Position numbers and translations under genes: made by a program
Assembly (NCBI GenBank): GCA_001771585.1
Contig: MEUE01000001.1
Location: 602,744 to 666,743, forward strand
DNA: 64,000 nucleotides
Origin: a candidate division WOR-1 bacterium RIFOXYB2_FULL_46_45
Lineage (GTDB): Bacteria > Margulisbacteria > WOR-1 > XYC2-FULL-46-14
Direction: 5' to 3'
The notes under the pieces: generated by a model
What the model saw: only the letters and a program-made list of their open reading frames with translations
Databases searched by the model: none
Told to the model about the DNA's origin: nothing
Shown: positions 572 to 26,409 of the stretch, piece after piece
Layout of the letters: each line of letters begins with the position of its first letter
Numbering within the stretch: the first letter of the stretch is position 1

Positions 572-3500
572 TTATTTCACTCCTTTCAAGCCGAGCGCTC
601 CTTCCATAACTATCTGCTCATTGCCACTGTAAGACCCGATGATCCTGGCTATAATTTCTTGATTGTTGGGATTGGTCAAAAGCCCTTTATACTCGGCTAT
701 TTCTTTGTCCAGTCCGGAAGAATCTTCCGAAAGGTTAAGCGCCCTCCGCAAATATCTGCGACCTTCGACTCCACGGTTAGCCGCTATGTACATTTTGGCC
801 AGCTCCTTTAATAATCCGCTCCGTTGGTAGGGATCGCCGTTCACCAGCAAACGGATAAAACCGTTGCTTTCAATATCGCCGATCAATTCAACCATCTTTT
901 CTTCCAAACTCCCCGCACTGAACCCGATTGCCGCGTCTTCATCCAAAATCCGGTGCATCATGCCAATGGCATTCTTCTTCCCTTCTTCCGAACGGTTAAA
1001 TACCAGCCAGGCAACCGATTGGTAGGCCCCGATAATCCTCTTAAACCAATCGGTCGTATAGGGAGTGTCTCCATAAAATTTCCGATAGGCCTCCGCCAAA
1101 AGCTTTTCTGCCGCGCCAAGGGCTTCGGTGGTGTTGCTTCCCAAAACCTTTTTTACTTGTTCAACTTCCGCGAGCAATTCCAGCTCTTCCATAACTTTTG
1201 CCCTCTCCCCTTTTCCCATCCTTTCTTCATACGAGCGCAAGCTCTGAGAAAAATCCAAAAGCCGCTCCATAGAATCGGAAAAAGCTTCATAATCGTCATC
1301 CTCAAGCGCTTTTTCCGCGCTGCTTAAAAACGCCCTTTCAAATTCGGTCAACCCTGTTTTTAGTTCGGCTATGACCGCTTTAACCTTCTTTATAATGAGC
1401 ACCCTTCCCTTAATCCTTTCTTCGAGATAAGTAGAGGTAATTCTTGCATCAAAATCAAACTGCTTCTCCTCAAAAATGGTCACTTCTTTACCAAGCCTGG
1501 CAAGGTGCTCTTCCATTTTTCTCTTGTTGATCTGCCTGGTGTAGTCCGGACCGTATACCAGCGCCTGAATGGTGCGCCCAATAAAACCAAGCGTCCTTAC
1601 CCGGCTTAAAACCGCTGGAGAAGAAACCCTGGTTGCGCCCGCGCGCACACTCTTTATCATCCGTAAAATGCCGACACAATCTTCTTCCGCCCGTTTTGAT
1701 TCTTCCCTTTCCAGAAAATAGACCACCCGTTCCAAAAAGGCCCTAACGCGAACCATGGGAGACAACTCTCTTACTCGTTCAAAATCGGACGCCACCTGCC
1801 TGGTTGCCGCTTCGGCTTCCGATTCCGTCTCGCTGACAAACTCAATCTTGGCCGCTGCCAAAGCAAGTTTCGCATAACGAACATAATCGGCTATTTTTGC
1901 TTTGTTTTTGGTATCCCAATCGGCCACAGCTCCTTCAACCCCGGAAACTTCTAACTTCCCCTCCAGTATGGTTTTGGCCACTCTTGCAATCCCCTCCCGT
2001 AATCCCTTATCTGACAAAGCAGTTGGCATCTGTTTTCCGTCCAATAATGCGGAAAGACTGTCAATAATATCAATCACTTCTTTTATTCGCGGATCGCCCT
2101 GCATCCTGGCCTTACGCTGAAACACCGACAGGTCTCCGGTTACTTCCGCTCCGATGCCAACGGCCGATTTTTCAGCATTAAAAATCCCCAGTAATGCGCT
2201 TAACGCGATTTCCGGAGTTAATTCCTCCCATAAAACCTCTTTGTATAATTTAACCGCCGTTTTATAGTCGGCCAATCTCTCTTTGTCACCTCTTGCCACT
2301 TTTTTTCTTGACAACAATTCTCCCCTAGCCCTGTACATCTCCGCTTTCTGCAGGCGCAATACTGCCATCAAAACCTTAAATCCTCTCTTGTCCTCTTCTT
2401 TGTGCCCGGTCGGGTCAACCCATTTATCAAAAAGGTCGTCCCGCATCTCTTTAATCTGCCGGCTTACCCTTTCGGTTGCCCGATCCAGATTCTTTATTAT
2501 TCCCTTCTTTTCTTCCCACGGTTCCGAAAGCCGCTTTGCCCCTTCGGCATAAAGAATCGCGGCTCTGGCAAAAATCTCCGGAGTTTTTGAGGCCAGATGT
2601 TCCTCACAGATTAGCATTCCGCGTTTGACCATCTCCTCTTCATAGGTATCGATCAAGCTCTGGGCAACTCCAAGTTCCGAAAACGGGCTTCTTTGTTTTT
2701 CGGAAACAGCGCTATAGCGCCGAAATACTTCAAAGGGCAAAAAGCCCCCTTCTCTTATGGTCCCCTCCAACCCCTGTGCCGCCCTCAACGTTTCATAGGG
2801 ATGGGACTGAATTGTCGGATCGGACAAAACCCGGGAATATATTTCAGCCGCTCCATCCATCATCCAGAGAGCTTTCATCTGGTCAGCGGCATTAAGATTG
2901 GCCCTACCTCCCACAATTGGAATAAGAAAATCTTGCTTTTCTGCCGCAACCACAGCCGGAACCAAATCCAATTCCGCCCGTTCTCCCGGCGTGCGTCCCC
3001 AATAAGAATTAAATCCGGGATAAAACGGCAAAAATTTGGCGTGTGACCATGGATAAGGATGTCTTTGCAGGATATTCTGGATATCTTTACTTTTATCCAT
3101 TTCATAGCGTGCCAACGGCTCCCAAATAAACGCGCGGTCAAGCATCAAGGTTGACCATAAGAAAAGACTGCTTTCATAATAACGTCCGGTTAATCCGGAA
3201 TTCTGTTTAGACATCTTCTCCCGCAATTGATTGCACATTCTTCTGTAAACCAAACCGGCACGATCTTGTCCCGCCGCGTAAGCCAGGGCGGCGTATCCGG
3301 CATAAAGCATATCCTGTCTCGCGAATCTCTCTTCCATCTCTCCGGCCGCGATCTCTTGCCCACCGTAATCATGAATTCTCATTGCATCAACCGCTTCCAC
3401 AATTTTTAAAGACCTGGTCATCTCATCCAAAATTAAACGGGCCAACCGCACGTTCCTTTCCGCAACGGAAGGATCTTTGCAATAAAGGGCGTCCTGGGCA

Positions 3501-4471
3501 ATCATCCAGAGCGTTCTTACCGCATCGTATCCAAATCGAAAACTGCGGCCGGCAGGACTATAAACTTCAAATTCGTTTTCAAGTTTACCCATATTCAGGC
3601 GCGTCTTCACCGCAAGGATAATCCAATCCGGAATATTTTTACCAAATCCCTCAATCACCACCTCGCGGCTGATCTGCTCATCTTCAATAATTTTTTCCCA
3701 TTTATGTCCCGGGTTAGAGTCAAAATCACGGAAAACCTCAAGAATCGCGATGGAAACGTAGCTTAAGTTCTTAAGATGGCCGTGAACTCCTCCCCGATCG
3801 TAGGGGGTGGGAGCCAGACTGGCAAAAGCGCCGTCGTTGTCAACATATTTTTCATAAATCAGGTTAAGAAGACGCTGTGCCATTTCGGTATAATCAAATC
3901 CGTCAATCTCCTGCCAGTTCCCTGCTTTGACCTTCTGCGCCGCCTGGATAAGCTCATTGGCAATCTGTATGTCGGCATCAAGGGCCGAAGTGCGATTGGT
4001 AACAACAAACTTTCCGGTTTTTTTATCTACATAACCCTGCCAGGCGGGAAGCCCTCTCTCCATCATAAGTTTGACCCCTCTTAAAACTTGGTTGAATTTT
4101 TCCTGGCTATCCATCTGCCTGGCGGCACTCAAGCCCCAGGGTGCCCCCTCCGATACCCACAGGAGTTTGTCTTTCTCTTCTTCCTGTTTCACAAAAACCG
4201 CATCGGCTACTCCGGGAATCGGAGCGGTAAAAGTTTCCCACCACCCGGCGAGCAATTCTCCACGCTTTATGGAGGATGAAGTCCTTTCTATCGCGGGAGG
4301 GGAAATTACTTGAAGAACGTGTTGAGTCGCGGTAGCGCCGGCAATTAACCCGGTAAGACCAGCTCCCACAACCAATGCTTCCCTTCTGGTCATTCCCAAC
4401 CTTCCGGGAGAAAACTCCAGTGGCGGCTTCCCTTTTAAATATCTAATAACATTTCTAATTGGCAAAAGCAT
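572..4471 (-). CDS. GH8-family glycosidase with Tat-like signal and long helical C-terminal region
   Basis: Predicted 1299 aa. Residues about 75-420 match glycoside hydrolase family 8 (endo-beta-glucanase, BcsZ class). SEG near residue 108 is the expected general acid, an LDADIQIAN segment near 165-167 matches the TDADxxIA motif, and YDAVR near 316 supplies the other catalytic aspartate. Ahead of it, residues 28-50 (TRREAL then a hydrophobic stretch) resemble a twin-arginine signal or anchor. After about residue 600 the protein is charged and helical with TPR-like repeats, so it is over three times normal GH8 length. I chose the ATG at 4471 because AAGG lies 8 bases upstream; the GTG at 4480 is the alternative. 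It overlaps the end of the upstream glycosyltransferase gene by 17 bases, which implies translational coupling. Likely role: trimming the glycan made by that enzyme. Confidence 0.8.
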   Translation of the reverse strand: MLLPIRNVIRYLKGKPPLEFSPGRLGMTRREALVVGAGLTGLIAGATATQHVLQVISPPAIERTSSSIKRGELLAGWWETFTAPIPGVADAVFVKQEEEKDKLLWVSEGAPWGLSAARQMDSQEKFNQVLRGVKLMMERGLPAWQGYVDKKTGKFVVTNRTSALDADIQIANELIQAAQKVKAGNWQEIDGFDYTEMAQRLLNLIYEKYVDNDGAFASLAPTPYDRGGVHGHLKNLSYVSIAILEVFRDFDSNPGHKWEKIIEDEQISREVVIEGFGKNIPDWIILAVKTRLNMGKLENEFEVYSPAGRSFRFGYDAVRTLWMIAQDALYCKDPSVAERNVRLARLILDEMTRSLKIVEAVDAMRIHDYGGQEIAAGEMEERFARQDMLYAGYAALAYAAGQDRAGLVYRRMCNQLREKMSKQNSGLTGRYYESSLFLWSTLMLDRAFIWEPLARYEMDKSKDIQNILQRHPYPWSHAKFLPFYPGFNSYWGRTPGERAELDLVPAVVAAEKQDFLIPIVGGRANLNAADQMKALWMMDGAAEIYSRVLSDPTIQSHPYETLRAAQGLEGTIREGGFLPFEVFRRYSAVSEKQRSPFSELGVAQSLIDTYEEEMVKRGMLICEEHLASKTPEIFARAAILYAEGAKRLSEPWEEKKGIIKNLDRATERVSRQIKEMRDDLFDKWVDPTGHKEEDKRGFKVLMAVLRLQKAEMYRARGELLSRKKVARGDKERLADYKTAVKLYKEVLWEELTPEIALSALLGIFNAEKSAVGIGAEVTGDLSVFQRKARMQGDPRIKEVIDIIDSLSALLDGKQMPTALSDKGLREGIARVAKTILEGKLEVSGVEGAVADWDTKNKAKIADYVRYAKLALAAAKIEFVSETESEAEAATRQVASDFERVRELSPMVRVRAFLERVVYFLEREESKRAEEDCVGILRMIKSVRAGATRVSSPAVLSRVRTLGFIGRTIQALVYGPDYTRQINKRKMEEHLARLGKEVTIFEEKQFDFDARITSTYLEERIKGRVLIIKKVKAVIAELKTGLTEFERAFLSSAEKALEDDDYEAFSDSMERLLDFSQSLRSYEERMGKGERAKVMEELELLAEVEQVKKVLGSNTTEALGAAEKLLAEAYRKFYGDTPYTTDWFKRIIGAYQSVAWLVFNRSEEGKKNAIGMMHRILDEDAAIGFSAGSLEEKMVELIGDIESNGFIRLLVNGDPYQRSGLLKELAKMYIAANRGVEGRRYLRRALNLSEDSSGLDKEIAEYKGLLTNPNNQEIIARIIGSYSGNEQIVMEGALGLKGVK

Positions 4472-7400
4472 TTCTAACACCTTCTTTTATCTCAAGAGAT
4501 TTACTCCCCTCTTCATCCAAACGGCTCGGATCGTCATCCACTCGGCCGCGATAAATTCCCCTGTTAAATGCCAAAAGTGTTCCTGCTCCCACCCCGGCAT
4601 GCAATAATGTCCAGAAAGCGGCGGCAAACATCCCCGCCTGCCCCTGCTGGCTTAAGACATAATCGTGAGCATAGGCCAAGGCCAGTAAATTTGAACCGGC
4701 CAATGACATTTCAAACCAGAGGGTGCTCCAAGGAACCCTCTCTCTGGCAATACTTTCTTTGGGAGAAGGGACAAAAGGCGGACGCTCTCCCCAAACCGTT
4801 CCTTCGTAAAAAGATTGGAGCATCCTTCCCAACCCGCCAAACTCGATATAAAGACATCCCAGTGTCTCTTTTAAATATCCTTTTTCCAAAAAGCCCCTGC
4901 TTCTCATAACCCCCAGGAAACTGGACATGTTGATCCCGAAAGTAGCGCCAACCATCGCCAGGAAAACCGCGGCCTGTTCCGGGGTCTTGCCCATTATCAC
5001 GGAAGAGAGTCCGCCAAACATAAAAAAGAGCGGCATGGCAATCAGCGCCGGACGGAAAAACCCGGTCAACCAGAAAAGCGACAAGGAAGCAAAATGGATT
5101 TTTCTTCTCCAACCCATTTCGCTGAAAAGGATATCCCATAAGATTGGCTGGTTGCCGCGCGCCCAGCGGGCATAAAAAGTAGTATTGGCTCCCGCCAAAC
5201 TGTCCGAGTGTGCCCCCAGCGGACCGGTCCCTTCAAGGAACAGGCCGTTCCATAAATGATTGACCCCGTTGCCATCCATACTGAGTATCCCCCGTAAAAA
5301 TCTTATGCAGGAAGCTATATCTTCCGATTCGGTGGTGGTATCCTGCACCGCCCAGATTTCATGGACATCCCCGGCGATAATTTTTTTCTCATCTACCGGC
5401 ATTTCTAATCTCCGGGCCAAAAACTCCGGCATTCTTCCGGTGCGGGATAGAAAATGGCCGGCATCGGCAAACTGCAAGGCAGAAAACGCGTAAGCCAAAT
5501 CAACGGCGCTTAATCCAAGTTTAAGCAATTTAGCCGGGTAACTTTCAGATTTCACCAGTTTGGTAAGTTTAAACTTACCTTCATATCTTTCTCCTCCGTT
5601 CGAAAGCCTGCTGACGTAGGGAATTTGGGTAATCCACCACGAGCTTTCATCATAAGCCCGGGTGGAATAGGCGGTGCAGGAACCCCAGGAAGCAACTGCC
5701 CCATTGTTGGGATCAGATCCTTCAATATTCGGGAAGTTCCAATAAGCGTTACCGCCGCTCTGGAAAGAATCGGCAATCGGTTTTCCTTTCTCCCTTCCAA
5801 ACTGCCGCATACCGGTCATATAAATACTTTTTCGCTCCTGCAAATACGGGATCTGCCACAAGGCCGCGTCTTCCGGGGAGCGGTAATCAGCGTCATCCAG
5901 CTGTATTCCCGTGTATTTAAGGACCGATATCTGCGGGGTCTTTTCTTTCAAATAATCGGTAATCCCGTTTGCCTCCGCCACACCTTCCATTTCGGAAGCG
6001 ACTTTGCCGATCGCTTCAAACCCAAGCTTCCTGATCCTGTCGTCCAGCCGCACATCCCGGTCCGCTTCGGAAAGCCCTTCCCTTATCTTTTCAAAAGCCG
6101 TTTCAAGGCGGGGAGCAAGCTCACGGATTGCCGCCGCAAAGCGCGGGCGACACATTTCATCCCCTATCTTTTCTTTCCTAACCTGCATTTCGGGAAGCCG
6201 GTTGGTGACAATCAGCTCTTCCGCCGCCTGTTCCGCGCTCTGGCCATTCGGGCTTATGATATAGTGGTAATATTGTTCAAGCTTGCGCTTGGCCGCCTCA
6301 TGACCCTTTACTCCCAACATTTCACCCCTCCACACCACCAGCCGCCCTCCCGGACCGGGAACAAGAGTAATCGCTCCCAAATCCCTTTTCACGGTCATCT
6401 CTTCAAGTGTTCCTCTGATCGGAAGCGCCGCCTGCCTCAAAGCGGCCGCCTCTTCCTGTGAGTAAGTATCGGGAGATAAAGCGATAAAGGATTCCACAAT
6501 ATTGTAACCGGAACCCAACCGGGTGCCGATATCCGCCAAATTGTCCGAAGCGTGTGAAAAAAACCGGGAGAGCCAGCTTCTGCTTCGAAGCTCTTTGATA
6601 ATTGCAACCAGCTCTTTCTCTTCTATCTTTGACATATTGGGCCAGGTCCTCAACGCGGCAACAATTTGCGCGACATTCCTTCCCCTGGCGGTCTCCCCCA
6701 GAACCAGAGCAACAAACCGTTCTACGTTGTTTTCTCTCCCGCCGACTTTCAGTATAATTTCATTATTGATCCGCCTTCTAAGCTCTTCCGGAACCTCTTC
6801 TGAATATTCGTCGATAAATTTTTGATAATGCCTGGCAAGCGGCTCTTCGATCCTCCGGTCAAAACGGGCCCGCGGAGCGAGCCGCAGGTAATAATGTTCG
6901 GCGGTGCCGGCTATTTCAAAAACTCCGGCCCTAACCTCCCCTCTGATCGCTTCAGCGTGTTTCCGCACTATCGCCGGAAGAGATGAGATATCGTAATCAA
7001 GGTTGACTCCAAATTCATTTATGACTCTGCCGAGACAAATCCGCCTTTCAATCATTTCAGCCGCTCTAACTAATTTGGAAAGCAGTTTCGGCGGAATCGT
7101 TCCGGTTATACCCCATTCCGCCAGCAAAATAGCGGCGGCAGATTCAAAGGTCTTGCCGGACAATATCTCTTCAACCAGCCTGGTCGCGATATAATCGGCA
7201 TCGCACAGTCCGCTGTCGACCGTCCGGGGAATTAATCCCCTGGCGCCGGATATCTCCGCATCGATGAAGCGGATCACTTCTTGCGGAACGTGCCTGCGCC
7301 CAAAAATCCTCTCTTCAACCATCCGCATGACGATCTTCCGTTCCGCTTCGCCGATATAAACCGGAATGCTCCATCCCTTGATCAAGCCGTCGGCGACTCC

Positions 7401-9959
7401 GGCTTTTGCTCCTCCACGATAGGGATTGCGAACCAATTGCACCCGCTCGTCCACCTCTTCTTTGATCGCTTTTAAGTCGATATCAACGCCGGGGATCCCT
7501 TCAAATTCCACTTTTGGAATTGCCCGGCGCAAGGCCAATGCTTCGGCGGATTTAACCAACTCTTTTATTTTCCCCACCTGCCGGTTAAACATTTCTATGT
7601 AAGCGGTAACTATTTGTTCCGCTAATGGTTTTGGAAGACCCAATTCTCTTTCAAGTTTTTCAATCAAAGCATCCTTAGTATCCTTGTTTTTTGCCGGATC
7701 GGCAGTGCTTTCAAGTATCTTATCCAGCTCCTCCCTTTGCTTGGCCGAAAAGCGTTTACTTATTCCTAAGTCCTGTAGGACCAAAGAAATCGCGATGGAA
7801 AGTTTTTGTTTCTTGTCTCCGGAATTTCCAAGATTAAATGCTTTTAGTACCTCTTCCAATAGCTTCTCTTCCAAAACCGCCGGATCTTTCCCTAAAACAT
7901 CTTCAACCTTGGCGACCACCGCTCCCAAAAATTCAACCGCCGCAAAATGCTTGTACTCATAAGATTCCTCGATGACTTCAAAAAGTTTGTCCGCCATTTC
8001 CTCAACCTGTCCCGCATCCAGCCCTTCCGCCGTCCCAACTCTCTGTACAACAGCGGCTATTTCGCTTTTTCTTTCCTGCATCGCTTTTTGGACAGCTTGC
8101 TCAAAAGGAAGACCTTCTCTGGCAATAAACCCCTCCACCTTATCCCCAAATTTATATAAGCCGTTTATTCCGAGCGCGATGGCATTGGAGATCTTCTTCG
8201 ATTTGCCAAATTTACAGTGGAGGACACTCTGCACGACATGATTGCATTTTTCCCTCAAAGACCCGGCAATCAGCGAGATCCTTTTGTTATTCTCGGCAAA
8301 TTGCGACATAATCTCATGGGCCAGATAAAAAAGTTTCCTCTGTTCCACGCTGCCGCGATTGGCCGAAAAATCGTACCGCCCCACAACCTTGTCCGCGGCA
8401 CGGTTGATCTGTTCGTAGTTTGAATCGATTTGAGCAACTATCCTTTTGGCCTGTTCTTCGCTTAAATCAAATTCTTCCTGGAGGTGGCTATAAAAAAGAC
8501 TTAGGCTCTCCTCTGACAAAGCCTGTCCCTGAAAAATAGCATAGGCAAGCTTGGCAATATTGGCCTGCCGGACCAGTGAATCCAGTTTCTGCCGCATCAA
8601 ATGAGCCAGGGTCTCCACTTTGAGCGGGTCAACTCCCAGTTCAATAAGCTGTTCCCTTATCGCCTCCTGGGTAATGGTTGTTCTGAGCAGATCGTTTACT
8701 CCTCCGAAATTAAAGCTTTCAAAACAAGTCGCCATGGTCCTTCCAAGTTTCCTGATACTGCGCTGGCTGATCGAATACGGCTGGGCAAGCTCCGCCACTC
8801 TCGCCACCGAGTGAAAACGGCAATCGGGATCGTCAATCTCTGTCCCCTCAAAAGCGAGGACGCTTGAAATCTCGTCGGCCTTGATCCTTTCCACTCCCAG
8901 GGCGCTAATCATCTTTTCTATAACCAGTTTGCGGGCGACCATCTCTTTCCCTTTGTTCGCGGAGGCGTTGGCCGACATCTTGTTAAAGAGAAAAGAAGAC
9001 ATATCGGCCACAAAGGTATGGCATTTCTTGCCGTAACGCAAAGCGGTGCGGACATGGCTGATTACATTCGGCCGGATTGCCGAAGCGGGCTCGTCCACCA
9101 TTGTTAACAGGTAGGCATAAAAGGGCCGCTTTTCCGGATCGGGAACCAAACTTTCCCTGATCTCCGGATACCATCCCTCCCCAATCGCTTTTCTGGCATT
9201 TTTCACAACCGACCAAAAATACTTGACCGCCAAACCGTTAAAGAATAACTCGGCTACAAATAAAAGTCCGGCCGCGGTAATAAGCAGCGGTCCGGAAACC
9301 ATCCCCGCGGCAATAACCGCCCCAAGTGTATACAGACGATAGGAAGAATAAAGAACCGAGACAGTTATGGCAAGGGCGGAGAGTATCCTAAGTCCCCACG
9401 CCTTGGTAATATCTTTGGCAGATAGCTTGGAAGAGAGATCGGCGGCTCTAAGCGTCGCTTCCTGAACTGAAGCGGCGCTGTTGGTGGTCAAGACCGTTCC
9501 CAGTGACTTGAATAATCCTTCAAACTTTTTTTCCAAACGGCGGCTTCTCCACGATGATTGCGATTTGATTATCTCTTTTAACCCTGTTATTTGGGCAGTG
9601 ATTTCCGAAGCGTCTATCTCTTCATTGTTTTGCATTCTCCGGCAAAGCCCCGCCAGTCCAGCATAAAAACTTGTTTCAGCTAAGCTTGCTTCTCCCAATT
9701 TTTCATTCTGCCGCGAGATTTCTGAAATCGCTTCCATCCCTTGCGACATCTCAATAAAAATTTGGTCTTTGCGGGAAAGAAAACCATCCATGGCCATCCG
9801 CGCATCTTTGACAACCGCGGCGGTCCCGTTGCCATACCAATCGGTTCTAACTCCGTTGGAGATATTTCTTATATTTCCATTGTGCCCAAGCGTGAGATGA
9901 TGGATCATCCTCACCGCTTGAGTGGTGCGCCAGGCGAATCCGACATAATTACCGGCCAT
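4455..9959 (-). CDS. Giant family-2 glycosyltransferase (cellulose-synthase-like) with about 1000-residue insertion
   Basis: Predicted 1834 aa. Two or three membrane helices at about 190-246 are followed by the start of a GT2 fold: TMVDEP at 286-291 and an aspartate at 319 where cellulose synthases have DDG. The rest of the GT2 signature appears only about 1035 residues later: DDAD at 1355-1358, GSC near 1427, ESED at 1544-1547 (the TED base) and YARWARG near 1596-1602 (the QxxRW motif), then several C-terminal membrane helices. In BcsA-type enzymes the first two aspartate motifs are under 100 residues apart. The insertion is helical and charged, and I recognise no domain in it. The ATG at 9959 follows GGAG by 5 bases; a GTG at 9965 is possible. 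It is first in its operon behind a sigma-28-like promoter. Catalytic motifs look intact, so I expect an active membrane synthase; donor and product are unknown. Confidence 0.8.
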   Translation of the reverse strand: MAGNYVGFAWRTTQAVRMIHHLTLGHNGNIRNISNGVRTDWYGNGTAAVVKDARMAMDGFLSRKDQIFIEMSQGMEAISEISRQNEKLGEASLAETSFYAGLAGLCRRMQNNEEIDASEITAQITGLKEIIKSQSSWRSRRLEKKFEGLFKSLGTVLTTNSAASVQEATLRAADLSSKLSAKDITKAWGLRILSALAITVSVLYSSYRLYTLGAVIAAGMVSGPLLITAAGLLFVAELFFNGLAVKYFWSVVKNARKAIGEGWYPEIRESLVPDPEKRPFYAYLLTMVDEPASAIRPNVISHVRTALRYGKKCHTFVADMSSFLFNKMSANASANKGKEMVARKLVIEKMISALGVERIKADEISSVLAFEGTEIDDPDCRFHSVARVAELAQPYSISQRSIRKLGRTMATCFESFNFGGVNDLLRTTITQEAIREQLIELGVDPLKVETLAHLMRQKLDSLVRQANIAKLAYAIFQGQALSEESLSLFYSHLQEEFDLSEEQAKRIVAQIDSNYEQINRAADKVVGRYDFSANRGSVEQRKLFYLAHEIMSQFAENNKRISLIAGSLREKCNHVVQSVLHCKFGKSKKISNAIALGINGLYKFGDKVEGFIAREGLPFEQAVQKAMQERKSEIAAVVQRVGTAEGLDAGQVEEMADKLFEVIEESYEYKHFAAVEFLGAVVAKVEDVLGKDPAVLEEKLLEEVLKAFNLGNSGDKKQKLSIAISLVLQDLGISKRFSAKQREELDKILESTADPAKNKDTKDALIEKLERELGLPKPLAEQIVTAYIEMFNRQVGKIKELVKSAEALALRRAIPKVEFEGIPGVDIDLKAIKEEVDERVQLVRNPYRGGAKAGVADGLIKGWSIPVYIGEAERKIVMRMVEERIFGRRHVPQEVIRFIDAEISGARGLIPRTVDSGLCDADYIATRLVEEILSGKTFESAAAILLAEWGITGTIPPKLLSKLVRAAEMIERRICLGRVINEFGVNLDYDISSLPAIVRKHAEAIRGEVRAGVFEIAGTAEHYYLRLAPRARFDRRIEEPLARHYQKFIDEYSEEVPEELRRRINNEIILKVGGRENNVERFVALVLGETARGRNVAQIVAALRTWPNMSKIEEKELVAIIKELRSRSWLSRFFSHASDNLADIGTRLGSGYNIVESFIALSPDTYSQEEAAALRQAALPIRGTLEEMTVKRDLGAITLVPGPGGRLVVWRGEMLGVKGHEAAKRKLEQYYHYIISPNGQSAEQAAEELIVTNRLPEMQVRKEKIGDEMCRPRFAAAIRELAPRLETAFEKIREGLSEADRDVRLDDRIRKLGFEAIGKVASEMEGVAEANGITDYLKEKTPQISVLKYTGIQLDDADYRSPEDAALWQIPYLQERKSIYMTGMRQFGREKGKPIADSFQSGGNAYWNFPNIEGSDPNNGAVASWGSCTAYSTRAYDESSWWITQIPYVSRLSNGGERYEGKFKLTKLVKSESYPAKLLKLGLSAVDLAYAFSALQFADAGHFLSRTGRMPEFLARRLEMPVDEKKIIAGDVHEIWAVQDTTTESEDIASCIRFLRGILSMDGNGVNHLWNGLFLEGTGPLGAHSDSLAGANTTFYARWARGNQPILWDILFSEMGWRRKIHFASLSLFWLTGFFRPALIAMPLFFMFGGLSSVIMGKTPEQAAVFLAMVGATFGINMSSFLGVMRSRGFLEKGYLKETLGCLYIEFGGLGRMLQSFYEGTVWGERPPFVPSPKESIARERVPWSTLWFEMSLAGSNLLALAYAHDYVLSQQGQAGMFAAAFWTLLHAGVGAGTLLAFNRGIYRGRVDDDPSRLDEEGSKSLEIKEGVRNAFAN

Positions 9960-9991
9960 GTTCACTCCGCCTCCTTTTATCTCCTATATAT

Positions 9992-10101: not shown

Positions 10102-10124
10102 ATATATAGAAAGAGGTGTTTAAA

Positions 10125-11606
10125 ATGTCCTATTTCGGATTTAAGAGCATAAGGGTGGGAGGGATAAAGCTTCCTACAATCGTAAGCGGATCACAGCCGT
10201 TCCGCAGCGGCTTTTTCTCTCGTAAATCACTCCCTTTCAAAAGCGCCCACGCAATTGTCGGTTTGGGGTGGGGAGACGAAAGAAAAGGGGCCAACACCGA
10301 TTTTGTCGTTTCACGCATCAGAGAAATTGCCCCGGACCGCTGGATAATTGTCGCGCGCTTCAGCGGAGGCCCCAACGCCGGACACAAAGTGGTCCATCCT
10401 TCCGGAAAATTCCGTGTCTTTAACCAGGTCCCATCCGGAATCCTGGTTGAAGGCAATACGATCGGGATCCTTTCAAAATTAGTCGACCTTGATCTCTTAT
10501 TCGAGGAAATGAGAATATTGGAAGATCGTTTTGGGAAAGCCCTGTTTAAACCGGATAAAATCAGGATTTTTGAAGATTCCACCATTATTCTCCCCTATCA
10601 TCCGGCGCTGGGCAGAATGGAAGAAGCGGCAAGGGGAGACGGTGAACACGGCAGTATCGGCAGAGGGGTTGGAGAAGCGGAAAACGATAAAGAAGAGAAA
10701 ATAAAACTCAAAGAACTAATTGACGCGTTGGGGGACTCGGAAAAAAGAAGCGCATTGGAAAGGAAGCTGACCGATATTTGCAGAGAAAAACACAAACGGG
10801 CAATGCAAATAAAAACCCGTTCGAGCAGGGCAAGCGAGCATTATAATCCGAACGACTTTAATCCAAAAATTATTTTGGAAAAATATTTATCTTACGCACG
10901 ATTTCTCCAGGAGAAAAACTTAATTATCGCTCCTGATTTTATAGAGAAAAAATTCGCAGAAGGAAACATCTCCATTGTTTTTGAGGGGTCGCAAGGAGCG
11001 TTGCTCCATCCAAAATACGGACCGGAACCGTATGTAACCAAAACCAACATATTGGCGGAAGCCATACAAGATTATGCCGGAACCACTATCACTTTGGATC
11101 AAGTTGAGATAATCGGTTCAATCCGGGCCTACCACACCCGCCACGCGGTCGGTCCGTTCCCGACCGAAATACCTCCAGCTATCTGTCCGGATGTACTGCT
11201 CGATTCCACCCGCGGCAACCCCTGGCGGGGATCTTTCAGGGCCGGGTGGCTGGACATGGTTCTTTTACGATACGGGATCGGGCTAAATGCCAGGATCGAT
11301 TCTCTGGCGGTAAGCTGCCTTGACCGGCTTGACACTTTGGGGACTATCCGTTTTTGCCCCGCTTATACATCGGGTCCGGATTTTCCGCCAGGATTGAAAA
11401 AAGGAGCGGTCACTGAATTTTTAATGCGGACCGTGCCAATTTATGAAGAATATCCCGGATGGCTTAGGCCAACCGTAGGGATTACAAGATATAACGACCT
11501 TCCGCAAGGAGCAGCCAGACATTTAAAAATAATTGGAGAACACACCAACCATGAAGTCTCCGCTTTTTCAATCGGGGCGGGAAGGAATCAATTAATTCTT
11601 CTTTAG
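10125..11606 (+). CDS. Divergent adenylosuccinate synthetase-like protein (PurA paralogue)
   Basis: Predicted 493 aa; canonical PurA, which joins IMP and aspartate using GTP, is about 430. Family landmarks are in order: GWGDERKG near residue 49 (GxQWGDEGKG, catalytic Asp kept but the loop altered), FSGGPNAGH (the catalytic His region), PSGIL, FEGSQGALL, AYHTRHAVGPFPTE, a GWLDMVLLRYG segment and a C-terminal GWLRPTVGI. Where PurA has IGTTGRGIGP there is GSIGRGVGEAENDKEEK, then a charged insertion of about 60 residues. An N-terminal extension of about 40 residues is also present. The ATG at 10125 follows GAGG by 8 bases. Its last 15 bases overlap the convergent gene downstream. The changes and its regulon membership make a specialised paralogue more likely than the housekeeping enzyme; its substrate is unknown. 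Confidence 0.75.
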   Translation: MSYFGFKSIRVGGIKLPTIVSGSQPFRSGFFSRKSLPFKSAHAIVGLGWGDERKGANTDFVVSRIREIAPDRWIIVARFSGGPNAGHKVVHPSGKFRVFNQVPSGILVEGNTIGILSKLVDLDLLFEEMRILEDRFGKALFKPDKIRIFEDSTIILPYHPALGRMEEAARGDGEHGSIGRGVGEAENDKEEKIKLKELIDALGDSEKRSALERKLTDICREKHKRAMQIKTRSSRASEHYNPNDFNPKIILEKYLSYARFLQEKNLIIAPDFIEKKFAEGNISIVFEGSQGALLHPKYGPEPYVTKTNILAEAIQDYAGTTITLDQVEIIGSIRAYHTRHAVGPFPTEIPPAICPDVLLDSTRGNPWRGSFRAGWLDMVLLRYGIGLNARIDSLAVSCLDRLDTLGTIRFCPAYTSGPDFPPGLKKGAVTEFLMRTVPIYEEYPGWLRPTVGITRYNDLPQGAARHLKIIGEHTNHEVSAFSIGAGRNQLILL

Positions 11607-14480
11607 TTTTTTCTCTGCGATTTCGCTTGCCTTGAGTGCGGCAACGTCAATCTCTTTGAGCATAATAACCACGGCAGGATTATCTGTGTCCCGATCTTCA
11701 ATCGTAACGTCCAACGGAAGACCGTCTTTCAATTTGCCTTTTAATGCTTCCAATGCTTTTTCATTGGCAAAGCCAAAGATCAAAACCCCATTTTTATCAA
11801 CCAGTTTAACGCTAAGCTTCTTAACTGGTGTTCTTCTGCCGCGATCAAGCTTTTGAAGTTCGGCGACCAAAAACCCAAGATACGTAAAAAGAAGCGGATT
11901 CGCTGTTATCTGGCCGCGCCGCACATTCTCCTCGGTATTGCTGCTTTCATCCTTCGCCAAATCGCACAGCGGAAACGCGTACAAAAACTCGATTCGGTGG
12001 AAATGGCTCATAATTTCCGAACTGATGTTGCTTGCCGCAAGATGCTTGTCCCAATAATCTTTAAGACCAGCCAGCCCCTCCGGACGGTAATCCATAAAAT
12101 ATTCCTTCCCCTCTTTGCCATGATCAATCTGATCAAGGACCGAAACCGCCGCTCCAAGCCGATAGGGGGTTGTTCTTCCCGAAATTGTCCGTATTTCTGC
12201 AATCGCCGCTCCAGGATTGTTTTTATGTTTTTCCATAATATTATTTATTATTTCTCTTAATTCAAAATAGGTCTCAACCCTCAAATTGGAAAGGTTGCCG
12301 TGTGAGCCGATATCGGCAATGGTGATAAACAAAATCCGGTCAAGCAGGGCTTTTGCCCTGAAGATATCAATCTTCCCATTTACAAGGAGGAATTTTTTCA
12401 CATCTTCATCCTCCAGCATTTCGGCAAATACTTCAAGAGAAGAATGCCCCACATAGAAACCGCCAAAAGCATGATGGTGTTTTATCGCCAGTTCCAGGCA
12501 CCTGCGGCTTAATTCATTCTCCGCCTTTTTTAACTCTTCAACTTTTTTTAGCTCTTCTTTTTTCTTGTTGCCATCAAGGATCTTCTTTATTTTTCCCTCC
12601 GCCTCTTTTACTTTTTTGGCATCAAGAGGCAAGAATGGAAACCCCTGAAAAAGCCGGCAATCCACTATCAACTCGTATCCATTTTTATCGTGGTAGGCCA
12701 AATCGTTAACATCTCCCGGTTTACCCAAATCGTGGGCTGCCACCAGGAGAATCCGCTCTTTTTCCGGAATGGCCGCGGCAAGCTCCCTGATCCGCGCGAG
12801 ATTTTTCTTCTCTCTTTCGCGGTTACCCAAAAGTGAAAGGACTCCCAATCCGGGACTCCTCACCGCGAAAGTTTCGGGAGTATGGCCAGCCTGGATCGCC
12901 ACCGCGATTGTATCCAAAACATGCTTAGGCGTAAAATCCAAAAAAGCATCCGCTTCCAATTGCGTGAGAGGATTGCGGCCGGCTTCTTGAAGTCTTGAAG
13001 AATCTCTCATAAGAATAGTTAACAGGTTCAAAATAGCCCTCTCCCCTTTTTGCCCGTATAAAGCCCCGCGGATAGTTCCCAGCGTCCTTGCGTCAATTGC
13101 CGGATCCTGGGCCGCCGTTACCGCCATACTTAACAATTTGCGCGCCCTTAAAGCACGGGGAGAATCGTAAGAATAAGTCATTGGCTTCAAACCGGTGCTG
13201 GCCGCTATAAAATCAAGAATAGCATCAAGATCAAGTTCATCAAGTTCTCCCGAATTTTCAAATTCAACATCAAACTGCCCTTTTAATTTTTCCAATGCTT
13301 CCCTGACTGCCAGGGTTGTCTTTTCCCTCTCCTCCGCCGGACGGTCGCTCTCCTCTTCTCTCTCCCTAAGCCGCTCTTTTAACTTCTCTTCGCTTACCCT
13401 AAGATACAAAGTATGGACATCGATTTCTTTTTCTTTAAGAGCGGCGGCGATGGCCGGTCCGCAGGCAAGCATTTGAACTCCACCCCTGTAACGGGCCAAA
13501 CGCAGCGAGGTTTTTAATACCCCGTACCTGGCGCCATAGGCCTCTTCAACCGCCGCGAATAATCCCTGGTCCAGAAAAGCGTCAAATTCTTCCGGGCTTG
13601 CATATTCTTCTCCGATTCCGCCGGCTCCGATCCTGTCGGTAAAGACCGGAATAACACCCGCTTTTTTACTTTCGTCAAGCCTTTCTAAAATAGTGCTTTT
13701 CCCCGAACCGGAAGCTCCGGTGATAGTAACCAGTTTGAAATCGGTCCCGTCGGGAGAGCTGTTCCAATCCCTCAACAAAAGTTCGATATCATCGGACCTA
13801 AAGTGGCGCGGATTATATTCCCACCCAAAATAAGAAGCTATTCTTTGCGCTTCTTTAGCATAATCCGTTACTCCTAAAACAGGAAACCAGTTCATCGCCA
13901 TTTTATATGCTAAATCGATTTCCCGATCCGCGTCTTTGGGGGTGGCAGTACAATGTATCGCGTTAAACCTCGGATCAATTTCGTAGGGAGGAGAAAAGCT
14001 CCCCTCTTCTTCAAGTTTAAGCTGGTATCTTACTGACGCTTTAACCTGATCAGCCGTAATCACTTTGTCTTCATGGGTTAAGCCTTCATGAACAGCTTTC
14101 TCCGGCCAGGTCGGACCGACTACCGACGGATCCCTTAAAAAATCATAGAGGGTCTTTTTCCCCGCCGGCACTTCCGCTTCAACAACAAACGCCAAAATAG
14201 GGGCTTGCAAAACTCCGGGATTAGAGCTGGCGGAGATAAAACGAAGCGCCAATTCCCTTCTTAATCCTTCATCCAGCGTTCTCCACGCTTCGGAATAAAA
14301 CCGGTCTACAAATTCCGGGGTCGGCATAAATAAAATCGGAGCATTAACACTAGCATTAATGTTGTGCGCTTCATGTAACCTCTGCACCAATTTATTTGCC
14401 GCCTTCACGCTTAAACCGGGAACCATCGCATCCGGTTTCACCATTATCAGTGCCCGTTGGACTGCAGAAGCGCTTGCCAT
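11592..14480 (-). CDS. Trifunctional fusion: nucleoside diphosphate kinase, guanylate-kinase-like and HD domains
   Basis: Predicted 962 aa. Residues 7-200 resemble nucleoside diphosphate kinase: ALIMVKPDA at the start, GPTWPEKA, and NAIHCTAT near 173-180 with the phospho-accepting His. Residues 248-425 resemble guanylate kinase: Walker A GASGSGKST at 255-263, a TDRIGAGGIGEEY segment in the GMP-loop position, and RYGVLKTSL. Residues about 515-730 carry an HD phosphohydrolase signature: His 520, AHDLGK at 582-587, HHH at 668-670 and Asp 723. A charged coiled stretch lies near 620-660. The ATG at 14480 follows GGGGAGG by 9 bases and starts 2 bases after the upstream stop. The first two activities would turn GMP into GDP and GTP; the HD part could hydrolyse a nucleotide. 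It is third in the 19.4-11.6 kb operon. The domain calls are by motif; activity is inferred. Confidence 0.75.
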   Translation of the reverse strand: MASASAVQRALIMVKPDAMVPGLSVKAANKLVQRLHEAHNINASVNAPILFMPTPEFVDRFYSEAWRTLDEGLRRELALRFISASSNPGVLQAPILAFVVEAEVPAGKKTLYDFLRDPSVVGPTWPEKAVHEGLTHEDKVITADQVKASVRYQLKLEEEGSFSPPYEIDPRFNAIHCTATPKDADREIDLAYKMAMNWFPVLGVTDYAKEAQRIASYFGWEYNPRHFRSDDIELLLRDWNSSPDGTDFKLVTITGASGSGKSTILERLDESKKAGVIPVFTDRIGAGGIGEEYASPEEFDAFLDQGLFAAVEEAYGARYGVLKTSLRLARYRGGVQMLACGPAIAAALKEKEIDVHTLYLRVSEEKLKERLREREEESDRPAEEREKTTLAVREALEKLKGQFDVEFENSGELDELDLDAILDFIAASTGLKPMTYSYDSPRALRARKLLSMAVTAAQDPAIDARTLGTIRGALYGQKGERAILNLLTILMRDSSRLQEAGRNPLTQLEADAFLDFTPKHVLDTIAVAIQAGHTPETFAVRSPGLGVLSLLGNREREKKNLARIRELAAAIPEKERILLVAAHDLGKPGDVNDLAYHDKNGYELIVDCRLFQGFPFLPLDAKKVKEAEGKIKKILDGNKKKEELKKVEELKKAENELSRRCLELAIKHHHAFGGFYVGHSSLEVFAEMLEDEDVKKFLLVNGKIDIFRAKALLDRILFITIADIGSHGNLSNLRVETYFELREIINNIMEKHKNNPGAAIAEIRTISGRTTPYRLGAAVSVLDQIDHGKEGKEYFMDYRPEGLAGLKDYWDKHLAASNISSEIMSHFHRIEFLYAFPLCDLAKDESSNTEENVRRGQITANPLLFTYLGFLVAELQKLDRGRRTPVKKLSVKLVDKNGVLIFGFANEKALEALKGKLKDGLPLDVTIEDRDTDNPAVVIMLKEIDVAALKASEIAEKKLKKN

Positions 14481-17400: not shown

Positions 17401-18235
17401 CCAAATAGGCCTGTTGGGCGACCAGATGGATTAACCCCTGCTGGACTTCCCTTCTTCCACCTTCCATAAACATCAGGGCAATTTCCGGAACTTCGGCATT
17501 CATCTGGTTTTGAATCTCTTTTAGTTCTTCGGCTATGCAATCGATATCGGTCTCAACGGTCCGGCTCCCCTCGATTGCCTTAAGGGCTTCACCCGCCAGG
17601 CGTTTATATGTCCCAATTCTCTGCGCTTTTCGTAAAACTCTTCTTGTTTCAACAATATCTTTGGGAGGAGAAAACTCGGCGGAATCCTTTATCAAGCGTA
17701 AAATCCTCTCCACTTCAAGGGGAGGAGTTTTTTTGTCGATAATTTTAGCCAGAAGATTTTTTTCTTCTTCCAGCCGGTGTAATAACAAGGGGCCTCCCCC
17801 TTTAGTTCCACCGCCCGCGGCAGGAACACCGGTTGGTTGCGCGGTCACCGCCTCCGCATCTTCCCCTTTTAACATTATATGCAACCGGTCAAGCAAGCTT
17901 GTTTTTCCAACCGTGGGGAAACCGCTTTCCCCCGCCAAAGCAAAAGCAAATTGTTCGGTAAATGAGAACCCAAAACCTCTAAATAATTTCTCTCCCGCCA
18001 ATCTCCTCTCTTTCAACTCCAGCGTCAATCCGCTCCCCAAAAGCCCGTATTTTCGAGCCGCCATTTCAATATCCAGCCGGCCGGTGAAGGCGGTAACAAC
18101 CGCCGAATCGGAGGCGATCTGCCGCCCCAACTGTTCGGACCCAAAATGCCGGCCCAATACTTTCGCCAATTCCGGATTGTATCCGGTGCTGGTTTTTAAA
18201 CCGATCCAACTTATTTTTTGTGTTAAACTTATCAT
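14483..18235 (-). CDS. Large sugar-nucleotidyltransferase-like protein with left-handed beta-helix
   Basis: Predicted 1250 aa. The centre resembles a sugar-1-phosphate nucleotidyltransferase: EGGAGTRS near 597-604 in place of the GxGTR loop, VVLLGCDQ near 648-655 where the metal-binding aspartate is expected, and FIEKPP near 721-726, a hallmark of the family. Near 1090-1160 a hexapeptide-type stretch (VYIGRGTKLAAGTEIKPYT) suggests a left-handed beta-helix, as in GlmU and GlgC relatives. The first 580 residues are mostly helical; a GFPTVGKT sequence near 105-112 fits a Walker A motif but may be chance. The start overlaps the upstream stop as ATGA, and GGAGG lies upstream. Together with the kinase fusion next door it could activate a sugar for the glycosyltransferases. 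The exact substrate is not readable, and the family match is distant. Confidence 0.65.
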   Translation of the reverse strand: MISLTQKISWIGLKTSTGYNPELAKVLGRHFGSEQLGRQIASDSAVVTAFTGRLDIEMAARKYGLLGSGLTLELKERRLAGEKLFRGFGFSFTEQFAFALAGESGFPTVGKTSLLDRLHIMLKGEDAEAVTAQPTGVPAAGGGTKGGGPLLLHRLEEEKNLLAKIIDKKTPPLEVERILRLIKDSAEFSPPKDIVETRRVLRKAQRIGTYKRLAGEALKAIEGSRTVETDIDCIAEELKEIQNQMNAEVPEIALMFMEGGRREVQQGLIHLVAQQAYLEAGDSKDKVSIPKAVQDAIQMAKKSLVVDDKKRQTADPKAAAGNFSKLVVDPMLHPENGVVATGATTKAISAPNLNMLIEIFTDEKAASISKRAAEAVLASFFAGREEEVLSYIEAVLIGGDFKAAALGLEVARAIYPTLSTSDKKLKLERKVWAFNTRGTTLGLGEEVRNTIRHFEFTKRVNAVDPDAPTLTCPAPKVEEPQILPKDDTPVRNTGYVLANHKVNFIKSLVMEYFGDASERVRKNATVQLIESARFYEQMLDRIRGNMEVVGAVSAAKTDRREDEEVMIGNLSAFLVLIARAIKKGQFGRDAVLLFETEGGAGTRSLMLGVAEDVSKGGIRLGYVPFSIMSLMGAAEISFQLPNHGKGRVVLLGCDQLLKSYALFKDDYQGIRVGEKFLRDTDYGLHIMTVKAQVEGVPDGQLGYLKGLGQAVFDGEGKLIQFIEKPPLAVLREGIRRQVLSGKLGGKDYWTDNLRKITKLGEMKAADLFKEVCLQCVSSGLTAIAGNWEEFLARAAQATKEEWAKVPHGGVSDHQWEEARQLANALFYTYLNTFVMSITEELADQLERAFSRPSHDPKTGKENPALPLNLLFKKDPYVDWAQLLMEPMMIGKVDAEHKSIDAIVQDIDNLEDIQKKVKSHGFAKRIEIGFNLTERNIRALRSVPRNDPRWTPLKNLICLQAWLARKEEKEGWTPELVHMQDWIELWRIARMVEDKSKGVGVAVLDHFSDTGTVEEIFRKYMEIFHQDYFMRLMYRDIEGLNEPAPDGADIGTIMRKNIEEGACLGEIEFTGEENYELYGKKGIKIGEVVIEDISKVYIGRGTKLAAGTEIKPYTILLDAEIAQPVKITPYTVINGARITGKIEFPEMTFDLSKGYPKPSVIPVAAMRMLYDVIHTDEEKVLVVPPNIAMATVELYDGVLETGYTRIWGGKKEDGKVADHEIVFGTGMPFKVLCNLVQKRVRRTPRAIRGGK

Positions 18236-19377
18236 TTTCCGCCACCTCCGGAATCCGCCGCGGCCTGTGCCTGACCCGATCCTCCGGAAGCTCCCGCTCC
18301 GTCTCCTCCCGATGCTTTTTCCGCCCGATCCGATTCCGCCTGCTTTAACGCGTCAAGAGCCATTTTAACAAGTGCCAGTTCATCCGCTTGAAGTCCCGTC
18401 CCTTTTTCAAGCTTGTTGGTCAATACTTTCTTTAAATCTTCCAAATCTTTCGCCTCTATCTTTATCCCTTTCCCTTTTGCCGCCATTTTTCTCGCGAAAA
18501 AACGAATTTTCTCCGCGATAAGTTTTCGATCGTTTTCCGCGGTTGTCGAGTTAATTTTTTCTATATCTTCAATAAGCTTTTTTGTTTTTTGATCCAATTC
18601 TATTTTTGCCCCCCCCCTTTCTCCCCCTTTGTTTTTTTGTTCTTCCACCTGTTTTGCCAGAGCAATATCCCTGATCCGATCAGCCAAAGCCTTGATTTCA
18701 ACGGACAAAAACATCGGCTTAACTAAGCCGGCCGCGCCCGCCAACAGCCATTCACAGTCGCCAACCGCTCCTCCTCTGATGATCGAAAGATACGCGGAAA
18801 AGCGCTGGGGTTTTTTTCCGGTCCTTATTATTGAAAGGAGATCTCCTCCGCTAAATTGCGGCGCCGCTGGAACCATTGCCAATGGGGCTGTTTTTGGTGC
18901 GGAGACGATTGTCTGAGCGGCAAATCTCCTGGAGATTTCGTCCATGACTTTGCCGGCAAAAGGATCATCGGTTAAATCGGCAATCCTGCCACCGCAACCG
19001 ACAATATGTTGCAAAAGAGGTGCTTTGTCCGCGGGATTAGAGAGTGAAGAGATATACTTTTCGTCAACCCGCATCGCTCTCATTACCATGGGCCTATACC
19101 ATAAGCGGCTAATTCCAAATCTTCCCAACCAGGTTAAAGAAAGGCTGGCAAGTGTGGTTTCTCCCAAAACCAGCATAAAAGCAGAAAAACTAGAGAAATC
19201 GATAAAGGCCGCTTCATAGGCGCTTCCAAATAATTTATATCCGGCCACAGTGGTTATGCATACCGAAGCCCCAAAAGACAAGGCCCTGACCACTTTACCG
19301 GAAAATCTCTTAAAATTAGAGACCGCTGTAGGCAAACGGAGATCTGTACCGCCAGGGATTCGAACCGGTGTTATCAT
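18232..19377 (-). CDS. Two-helix membrane protein, family unknown
   Basis: Predicted 381 aa from the ATG at 19377, which has AAGGAG 10 bases upstream; a GTG at 19386 is the alternative. Two hydrophobic segments lie at about 32-52 and 65-85. The remainder is cytosolic-looking: a helical, lysine-rich middle and a C-terminal tail of Gly, Ala, Ser and Gln ending in GGGGK. The coding strand has a run of eight G near 18609-18616 inside codons for KGGERGG; the frame stays open across it. I recognise no family. It is first in the operon behind the sigma-28-like promoter and overlaps the nucleotidyltransferase gene by four bases, so it may anchor or organise the other products at the membrane. That role is inferred from position. 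Confidence 0.75.
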   Translation of the reverse strand: MITPVRIPGGTDLRLPTAVSNFKRFSGKVVRALSFGASVCITTVAGYKLFGSAYEAAFIDFSSFSAFMLVLGETTLASLSLTWLGRFGISRLWYRPMVMRAMRVDEKYISSLSNPADKAPLLQHIVGCGGRIADLTDDPFAGKVMDEISRRFAAQTIVSAPKTAPLAMVPAAPQFSGGDLLSIIRTGKKPQRFSAYLSIIRGGAVGDCEWLLAGAAGLVKPMFLSVEIKALADRIRDIALAKQVEEQKNKGGERGGAKIELDQKTKKLIEDIEKINSTTAENDRKLIAEKIRFFARKMAAKGKGIKIEAKDLEDLKKVLTNKLEKGTGLQADELALVKMALDALKQAESDRAEKASGGDGAGASGGSGQAQAAADSGGGGK

Positions 19378-19406
19378 CTCTCTCACTCTCCTTTCTTTCT
19401 ATATAT

Positions 19407-25477: not shown

Positions 25478-26409
25478 AGCCTTTTTTCCGCCCGGCGGTA
25501 GAAATAGAACCAGATATTAACCATAAAAATCATGCAGAGCATCAGGACCACCGAAGCGGCCGCTCCGGCCCCAAAGTTCCACTGCATAAAAGAGTTGCGA
25601 AAAATATTCGTCATCAGAAGGTCGCCCCACTCCCCGGGGAACCCCGCTCCAAAACCGAACATCATGATGACGATATTAAAACTGTAGACGTTGTAAATCA
25701 TCCCGAAAAGGATCAAAACCGCCCAGACCGGAGTCAAAAGCGGAAAGGTGATGCTCCAGAACTTTCTCCACGGGCTGGCGCCGTCGATATCGGCCGCCTC
25801 GTAGAGCTCTTCGGGGATCGACTGCATCCCAGCTAAAAGGAGGAGCATGGAAAACGGCCAGTAACGCCAGATGGTCGGAATAATGATCGCCCAGAGGGTG
25901 TTGGGACCGATCAGCCAAAAGGGCTTGTCGGGCATAAGATGAAGGATATCAACCAGAATGATATTGATGATCCCCACCCCTCTCTGCCACATGAAGCCCC
26001 AGAGAATTCCGGTGACATAGGTTGGAACAACCCACGGAAAGAGGAAGAGGGTGCGGATCAGGCGCTTGCCAAAAAACTGGCGGTTGACCATGAGAGCGAC
26101 GATCATCCCCAGGCTTAAAGTACCAAGGGTAACTATGATCGCGTATATAATAGTATTGCGGGTCGCTTCGAAGACCCCGATCCGAACCGGACTGTCCGGA
26201 TTTAAAAGGACGTTGTAAAAATTTTCAAAGCCGATAAAGGGGGCGGAGAGGTATTGGTTGATGGTGAACTGGTTCAAATCAAGAAAAGCCATCCAGATTC
26301 CCTGCGCGATCGGCCCGACGTGCATTGTCAGCATCCCTAAAACTGTCGGTAGCAGAAAGAGGTAGGCTATTTTGTATTTTCTAAATTCTCGAATTATCCT
26401 CTGTATCAT
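25474..26409 (-). CDS. MalF-type ABC sugar permease
   Basis: Predicted 311 aa with six likely membrane helices and the CUT1-family EAA loop near residues 205-225 (YEAADIDGASPWRKFW). It would form the membrane pore with the propeller-bearing MalG encoded next, with which it overlaps by four bases. No good ribosome site precedes the ATG. The matching solute-binding lipoprotein is probably the one at 41372, and the ATPase must be elsewhere, as is common when one MsmK-like ATPase serves many importers. Likely substrate: oligosaccharides released by the nearby hydrolases. Confidence 0.92.
   Translation of the reverse strand: MIQRIIREFRKYKIAYLFLLPTVLGMLTMHVGPIAQGIWMAFLDLNQFTINQYLSAPFIGFENFYNVLLNPDSPVRIGVFEATRNTIIYAIIVTLGTLSLGMIVALMVNRQFFGKRLIRTLFLFPWVVPTYVTGILWGFMWQRGVGIINIILVDILHLMPDKPFWLIGPNTLWAIIIPTIWRYWPFSMLLLLAGMQSIPEELYEAADIDGASPWRKFWSITFPLLTPVWAVLILFGMIYNVYSFNIVIMMFGFGAGFPGEWGDLLMTNIFRNSFMQWNFGAGAAASVVLMLCMIFMVNIWFYFYRRAEKRL

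Follow-up and report, generated by a model that had tools for sequence, protein, structure and literature searches.

A 962-aa protein encoded in the window, that is, in the whole 64,000-nucleotide stretch of DNA analysed here, carries an NDK-like domain, a guanylate-kinase-fold domain of PhnN type and an HD hydrolase-like domain on a single chain. Known domain families are assembled here into a new architecture, which is genuine, rare and associated with carbohydrate genes. The parts of the open-licence literature that we searched yielded no description of this domain order. Judged from sequence and gene context, the fusion may well serve an exopolysaccharide (cellulose-like) operon as its dedicated phosphotransfer module and would then make or recycle phosphorylated precursors for the synthesis of sugar nucleotides and polymer. 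The gene and its domains are located as follows:

11592..14480, minus strand: ORF with ATG start, encoding the NDK-like / PhnN-type guanylate-kinase-fold / HD protein of 962 aa; homologues in genomes G006, G009, G002 and G016
13896..14480, minus strand: NDK-like domain, residues 1-195 (hhalign, PDB profile search, aligned active-site residues)
13953..13955, minus strand: His176, which corresponds to the phospho-accepting His of NDK (alignment; kept in G006, NGWHCSD in G009)
13185..13748, minus strand: guanylate-kinase-fold domain, residues 245-432, with PhnN-type specificity positions
13695..13718, minus strand: Walker A motif GASGSGKS, residues 255-262, kept in 5/5 homologues
12300..12932, minus strand: core of the HD domain, residues 517-727, with ligands H520, H583/D584, H597, H669 and D723

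The first-pass annotation had proposed these three domains in this order, and profile comparison, a fold match and a conserved ligand set bear this out. The individual features it had pointed to hold as well: H176 aligns to the column of the phospho-accepting NDK His, the Walker A of the guanylate-kinase-like domain lies at residues 255-262, and the HD metal ligands are kept in 6/6 homologues (H520 in 5/5). The homologues, drawn from genomes of the same class, retain the motifs at 21-36% identity, which rules out a chance reading frame. The G006 homologue is a single ORF of 1217 aa, that of G009 is interrupted by an N-run and the end of a contig, and those of G002 (729 aa) and G016 (710 aa) have no NDK part. 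A phage or plasmid gene was likewise ruled out by the lack of any phage or plasmid match.

The first domain is predicted to be a divergent NDK, weak in Pfam and clear by profile comparison. The Pfam NDK model scored 13.6 bits (E 0.064) with the whole 962-aa protein and 18.5 bits (E 0.002) with the domain cut out alone, both short of the gathering cut-off of 27 bits. Using hhalign, a two-sequence profile of the domain matched canonical NDKs with probability 93.8, E 1.7e-7 and score 51.3; these were 22 sequences out of 30 loci from related genomes, the other loci having failed a length or motif filter. None of 100 column shuffles scored above 19.7, and Gmk, used as a negative control, gave 16.1. 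In a PDB search with a three-sequence profile, all 43 matches at E <= 1 were NDKs or NDK-containing proteins (best 7e-5), counting Thioredoxin domain-containing protein 6, which we take to contain an NDK domain.

The NDK active-site columns align with K15, Y62, R116, T124, N173, H176, T178 and E187, and we take the columns matched to be K12, Y52, R88, T94, N115 and H118 in NDK numbering. The window protein and its G006 homologue both have the catalytic His of the N..H.S motif (H176) and the Lys of KPD (K15); in G006, R116 is replaced by K and T178 by S. The Phe position of NDK is occupied by L or I. Placement of the Arg of TIRGD (R105) is ambiguous, since hhalign pairs it with R151 and MAFFT leaves it unpaired. 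In G009, the motif NGWHCSD is encoded by a second, overlapping frame next to the N run; we read this split as an assembly gap, the alternative being a real split. The domain resembles NDK (PF00334) in its active-site residues and the 'N..H.(S/T)' motif, but insertions expand it to about 195 aa and it is fused N-terminally to a kinase-HD core. In the full-length AlphaFold model, the NDK region is of low confidence (pLDDT about 35).

The guanylate-kinase-like fold that had been assigned to the middle domain was confirmed by structure prediction. In the full-length AlphaFold model, this domain mostly reaches 75-85 pLDDT, and it matched solved guanylate kinases with a Foldseek E of 1e-7 and 9lo3 with a VIA Z of 21.3 (rmsd 2.5, 184 aligned). 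Consistently, hhalign aligned it to guanylate kinase with probability 99.55. The Pfam Guanylate_kin model (cut-off 25.2 bits) gave 21.4 bits for the window protein in the protein scan and 25.6 in the genome search, and the G002 and G016 homologues exceed the cut-off. Like guanylate kinases (PF00625), the domain has the Walker A, and the first phosphate Arg (Gmk Arg42) and the Tyr of the YG motif (Tyr82) are kept in 5/5 homologues. Unlike in these enzymes, the residues that we take to recognise guanine, Glu73, Thr84 and Asp104 in E. coli Gmk numbering, are missing in 5/5. Given in the order G000 (the window's genome), G006, G009, G002 and G016, position 73 is A, V, A, G, G and position 84 is V, V, I, V, V, with G at position 104 throughout. 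The second phosphate Arg (Arg45) is A in 4/5 homologues and persists as R in G002 only.

E. coli PhnN, also a guanylate-kinase relative, has lost the same guanine positions (L, V and S at 73, 84 and 104) and has S in place of Arg45. In a FastTree phylogeny, PhnN and the five homologues formed a group apart from every Gmk included (support 0.997); this tree is small, with 6/25 canonical Gmks, E. coli Gmk and one PhnN, and long branches could add to the grouping. The best NCBIfam model was PhnN for the window protein and G006 and guanylate kinase for G002, G016 and G009. With the window protein, the PhnN model TIGR02322 scored 42.3 bits, below its equivalog cut-off of 156. We describe the kinase domain as related to guanylate kinase, with an acceptor site that has been re-tooled along PhnN-like lines, PhnN-like denoting the kind of site rather than a PhnN identity. 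The locus also differs from PhnN in its setting: E. coli PhnN is a stand-alone gene, and here we found no C-P lyase context, no phn genes being seen in the neighbourhood of the kinase-HD locus.

Pfam made no HD call on the window protein, and the best Pfam HD score was that of G009 (8.4e-4, 20.0 bits, under the cut-off of 22). Alignment of the homologues showed that H583-D584, K587, H597, H669 and D723 are conserved in all six, each with the H..HD..D metal motif in order; the homologue in which H520 could not be scored is truncated. When compared by hhalign with 25 HD proteins (out of 30 loci), which we assume from length and motif to be RNase-Y-like, the domain reached probability 44 and a score of 36.2 over just 29 columns, the best of 60 shuffles scoring 27.8. 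A model of residues 436-830 (pLDDT 77, pTM 0.82) gave no Foldseek match at E <= 0.001. Its best VIA match was the tRNA-processing enzyme 3wfo (Z 9.9, rmsd 4.5, 191 aligned); class I cyclic-nucleotide PDEs occupied rows 5-50 of the list at a modest Z of 7.5-6.3, a range that helical models can reach through a common arrangement. Among the best 50 VIA matches there were no HD families other than 3wfo-3wfr and the PDE chains. A PDB profile search with the HD alignment returned one match, an exopolyphosphatase, at E 0.81. Compared with the HD superfamily (PF01966; RNase-Y-like, HD-GYP), the domain shares the order H..HD..K..H..H..D but has long inserts between the motifs and stays under the Pfam cut-offs.

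HD-Pnk RNA-repair enzymes likewise carry an HD phosphohydrolase and a P-loop kinase on one chain. In the protein described here, by contrast, the kinase has a guanylate-kinase fold and precedes the HD domain, an NDK stands in front of it, and polysaccharide genes surround the gene. For the HD-GYP protein PmGH, the published description lists the ligands H189, H221, D222, K225 (stabilising), H250, H276/H277 and D305 (PMC4159591), and the ligand order H, HD..K, H, H, D of our domain is the same. That paper associates mononuclear HD centres with phosphomonoesterase reactions and binuclear centres with phosphodiesterase reactions (PMC4159591). Because the full polynuclear ligand set is present, this comparison points to a putative di- or trinuclear phosphodiesterase-type HD domain rather than a drain. 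Visual inspection of the HD alignment revealed no GYP motif.

The fusion gene lies within an operon whose products are large and diverged. Its other members in the window, together with the gene antisense to it, are:

18232..19386, minus strand: first operon gene, ORF of 384 aa
14483..18235, minus strand: nucleotidyltransferase-like protein, 1250 aa (GxGTR ... K ... D ... EKP; GlmU-like C-terminus)
10116..11606, plus strand: divergent adenylosuccinate-synthetase (PurA) paralogue (Pfam 2.3e-69), convergent with the fusion gene with a 15-base overlap
4455..9965, minus strand: putative GT2 / cellulose-synthase-like membrane protein, 1836 aa (CelA E 0.0023; shared motifs)
572..4480, minus strand: GH8 / BcsZ-like endoglucanase giant, 1302 aa (Pfam GH8 2.2e-9)

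The fusion gene looks translationally coupled to the upstream gene for the 1250-aa protein because its ATG lies 2 nt past the stop of that gene, behind the ribosome-binding-like stretch GGGGAGG. The 1250-aa protein has weak GlmU matches in NCBIfam, and GxGTR, K615, D654 and EKP are common to 3/3 nucleotidyltransferase homologues, which range from 1250 to 1595 aa across G000, G006 and G009. A neighbouring nucleotidyltransferase had been noticed in the first pass, and it adjoins the fusion gene in 3/3 NDK-fused loci. The GT2-like giants of the three genomes share DAD-like, SEDIA (TED-like) and RW motifs, which we read as GT2 signature motifs. The CelA NCBIfam model reached 16 bits against a cut-off of 699, so that the tentative GT2 assignment is based on these motifs plus one weak CelA match. 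The GH8 giant exceeds its Pfam cut-off (37.3 vs 24). The BcsZ NCBIfam model matched it at 3.8e-11 (42.4 bits, below the cut-off of 299) and both homologues at about 1e-12, making the protein BcsZ-like in 3/3.

Gene order is common to G000, G006 and G009: first gene, nucleotidyltransferase, fusion, antisense PurA paralogue, GT2-like giant and GH8 giant. For G006 and G009 the order is pieced together from two contigs whose ends fall within or next to the fusion gene, and we infer adjacency across the break. The PurA paralogue has the same antisense position in these two genomes, the GT2-like giant consists of two ORFs in G006, and the position of the 384-aa gene is held by genes of 526 and 537 aa without detectable BLAST similarity. 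Beyond the GH8 giant, to the left of the window and on the same strand, the window's genome encodes a 1086-aa TPR + BamA-like outer-membrane-barrel protein (L140:4419-7679) and a 1867-aa TPR-like protein (L140:7711-13314); the two are possibly an exporter. As in a bcs operon, a GT2-like synthase, a BcsZ-like GH8 and TPR + an outer-membrane barrel are found on one strand; unlike in bcs operons, the proteins are giant and highly diverged, the locus has its own nucleotidyltransferase and kinase-HD fusion, and a PurA paralogue lies antisense. The operon looks as if it makes and exports a cellulose-like sugar polymer.

Two further features of the window lie outside this operon. An IS110/IS116-type transposase is encoded directly upstream of it (19595-20902, plus strand), and a second carbohydrate locus (31004-33433, 26556-27704 and 23681-26409, all minus strand) comprises a GH94 phosphorylase, a stand-alone GH8 and two ABC permeases.

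A search for the same architecture in related genomes, which the first-pass annotation had suggested, found the NDK-fused form in 3/74 genomes of the phylum (G000, G006 and G009, one copy split by the assembly gap). The kinase-HD core profile detected five of the 74 genomes (G000, G002, G006, G009 and G016); its remaining matches were canonical Gmk-sized proteins and were excluded from the family count. All five, together with the HD-only G013, fall within one class of 31 genomes; G013 has no kinase and was left out of the kinase-HD profile. The GT2 giant is present in 3/74 genomes, exactly those with the NDK-fused form. Nucleotidyltransferase matches at E <= 1e-5 occur in 4/74 (G000, G006, G009 and G016), and G002 has a weaker one beside the kinase-HD gene (BLAST 2.7e-4); the matching stretch of G016 is likewise close to its kinase-HD gene. 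The kinase-HD gene of G002 has GT4-like and PfkB neighbours, and that of G016 adjoins a gene in which PfkB and an ARMT1-like phosphatase are joined.

The window's genome has separate housekeeping copies of ndk, gmk and purA, which rules out that the fusion replaces missing housekeeping enzymes there. Class-wide, NDK matches were found in 29/31 genomes, Guanylate_kin in 29/31 and PurA in 28/31. In G016 (91% complete), the lone Guanylate_kin match is the kinase-HD protein itself (L022:8125-10257), which could take over the role of gmk there, provided that the missing part holds no gmk.

A phosphotransfer module that supplies or recycles precursors for making NDP-sugars and polymer suits the operon best. 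The kinase domain would add a phosphate to an already phosphorylated acceptor without guanine; a sugar phosphate or an NMP other than GMP is the likeliest. The NDK domain would convert a diphosphate to the triphosphate, e.g., NDP released by the glycosyltransferase to NTP for the nucleotidyltransferase. The HD domain would hydrolyse a phosphate ester, as a phosphodiesterase or a brake, and precursor supply would thus be coupled to polymer synthesis. The acceptor may be either a nucleotide (e.g., in a series UMP, UDP, UTP) or, as with PhnN, a sugar phosphate; the genes for a sugar kinase and a sugar phosphatase beside the kinase-HD core in G002 and G016 make us lean towards the sugar phosphate. 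For such a module speaks that the NDK-fused form occurs only alongside the nucleotidyltransferase, the GT2-like glycosyltransferase and the GH8 endoglucanase, a co-occurrence that rests on three genomes, and that the kinase-HD core has sugar-metabolism neighbours where it occurs without NDK. Against it, the guanylate-kinase model outscores PhnN in G002, G016 and G009, and G016, at 91% completeness, has no other Guanylate_kin match; the low pLDDT of the NDK model, the tentative GT2 assignment and the lack of a clear fold match for the HD domain also count against it. If true, this would be a natural multi-enzyme fusion, from an uncultured lineage, that links polysaccharide synthesis directly with the chemistry of nucleotides or sugar phosphates, and a further case, beside PhnN, of a guanylate-kinase fold re-tooled away from GMP. 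The synthase, hydrolase, nucleotidyltransferase and kinase of this compact operon have all diverged too far for standard annotation to pick up most of them.

The same domains allow other readings. The local GMP-GDP-GTP cycle that the first-pass annotation had envisaged, in which the middle domain phosphorylates GMP, NDK makes GTP and the HD domain drains it, would fit the guanylate-kinase fold and homology (hhalign probability 99.55), the top rank of guanyl_kin in NCBIfam for G002, G016 and G009, and the lone Guanylate_kin match of G016. This cycle was not borne out, since none of the 5 homologues keeps the Glu, Thr or Asp of the guanine site and the window's genome has canonical gmk and ndk; the second phosphate Arg is also lost in 4/5, and we regard the cycle as decidedly improbable. 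The PhnN-like specificity positions instead leave some room for a sugar-phosphate route resembling that of PhnP and PhnN, which we put forward tentatively: the HD domain would open a phosphodiester or cyclic phosphate, the PhnN-type kinase would add a beta-phosphate to the sugar-1-phosphate, and NDK may add another to give an activated sugar. The full polynuclear HD ligand set, tied to phosphodiester cleavage in PMC4159591, agrees with this, as do the sugar kinases and sugar phosphatase encoded next to the kinase-HD core in G002 and G016; the score far from the PhnN NCBIfam cut-off (42 vs 156 bits) and the absence of phn genes in the neighbourhood argue against it. The E. coli phosphodiesterase PhnP opens a cyclic phosphate in the step directly before that of PhnN (PMC10574752), which makes a fused phosphodiesterase and PhnN-type kinase plausible as a speculation. 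That a single chain cleaves the diester, forms a sugar-1-diphosphate and passes a phosphate on by NDK, yielding an unusual activated precursor for the giant cellulose-like synthase, is rather unlikely; such a three-step path is not known in one protein.

A regulatory role seems doubtful. Here the HD domain would degrade a signalling nucleotide, controlling the GT2 synthase in a c-di-GMP-like manner, and nucleotide sensing would fall to the kinase folds. The HD ligand order is as in HD-GYP (PMC4159591), the operon includes a cellulose-synthase-like GT2, and class I cyclic-nucleotide PDEs appear in the VIA list, but a Z of 6.3-7.5 for a helical model may reflect the common arrangement, the alignment shows no GYP motif by eye, and the intact Walker A and main NDK catalytic residues would argue for active kinases. 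We consider it extremely improbable that the locus is an anti-phage or conflict system acting by nucleotide depletion. An HD domain, a kinase and a PurA paralogue do lie side by side, but the operon is carbohydrate-related, phage or plasmid matches are absent, and PADLOC yielded weak P-loop matches (best 8.1e-5, VakA), on which anti-phage defence was rejected as the main reading.

Several loci of the related genomes showed additional fusions and paralogues. Beside the kinase-HD gene of G002 (L021:4770-8416) lie a SLOG cluster4 (LDcluster4) protein (6198-7547) and the PfkB kinase; the ORF at 4770-6095 has the same size as the adjoining SLOG cluster4 protein and a similar N-terminus. The PfkB + ARMT1-like phosphatase fusion of G016 is found at L022:4632-8138. 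In G013 (L023:7509-9878), the HD domain is fused to an MbnB/TglH/ChrH (MNIO)-like TIM barrel beside three NTP_transferase genes. Strongly diverged PurA paralogues besides canonical purA are encoded at 10116-11606 (plus strand) of the window and at L139:9064-10560, L136:2148-3734, L137:8583-10184, L138:145-1785 and L025:1548-3116. Some of them lie antisense in the polysaccharide operon, and others are found in small clusters with a Mur-ligase-like or pyruvate-kinase-like neighbour.
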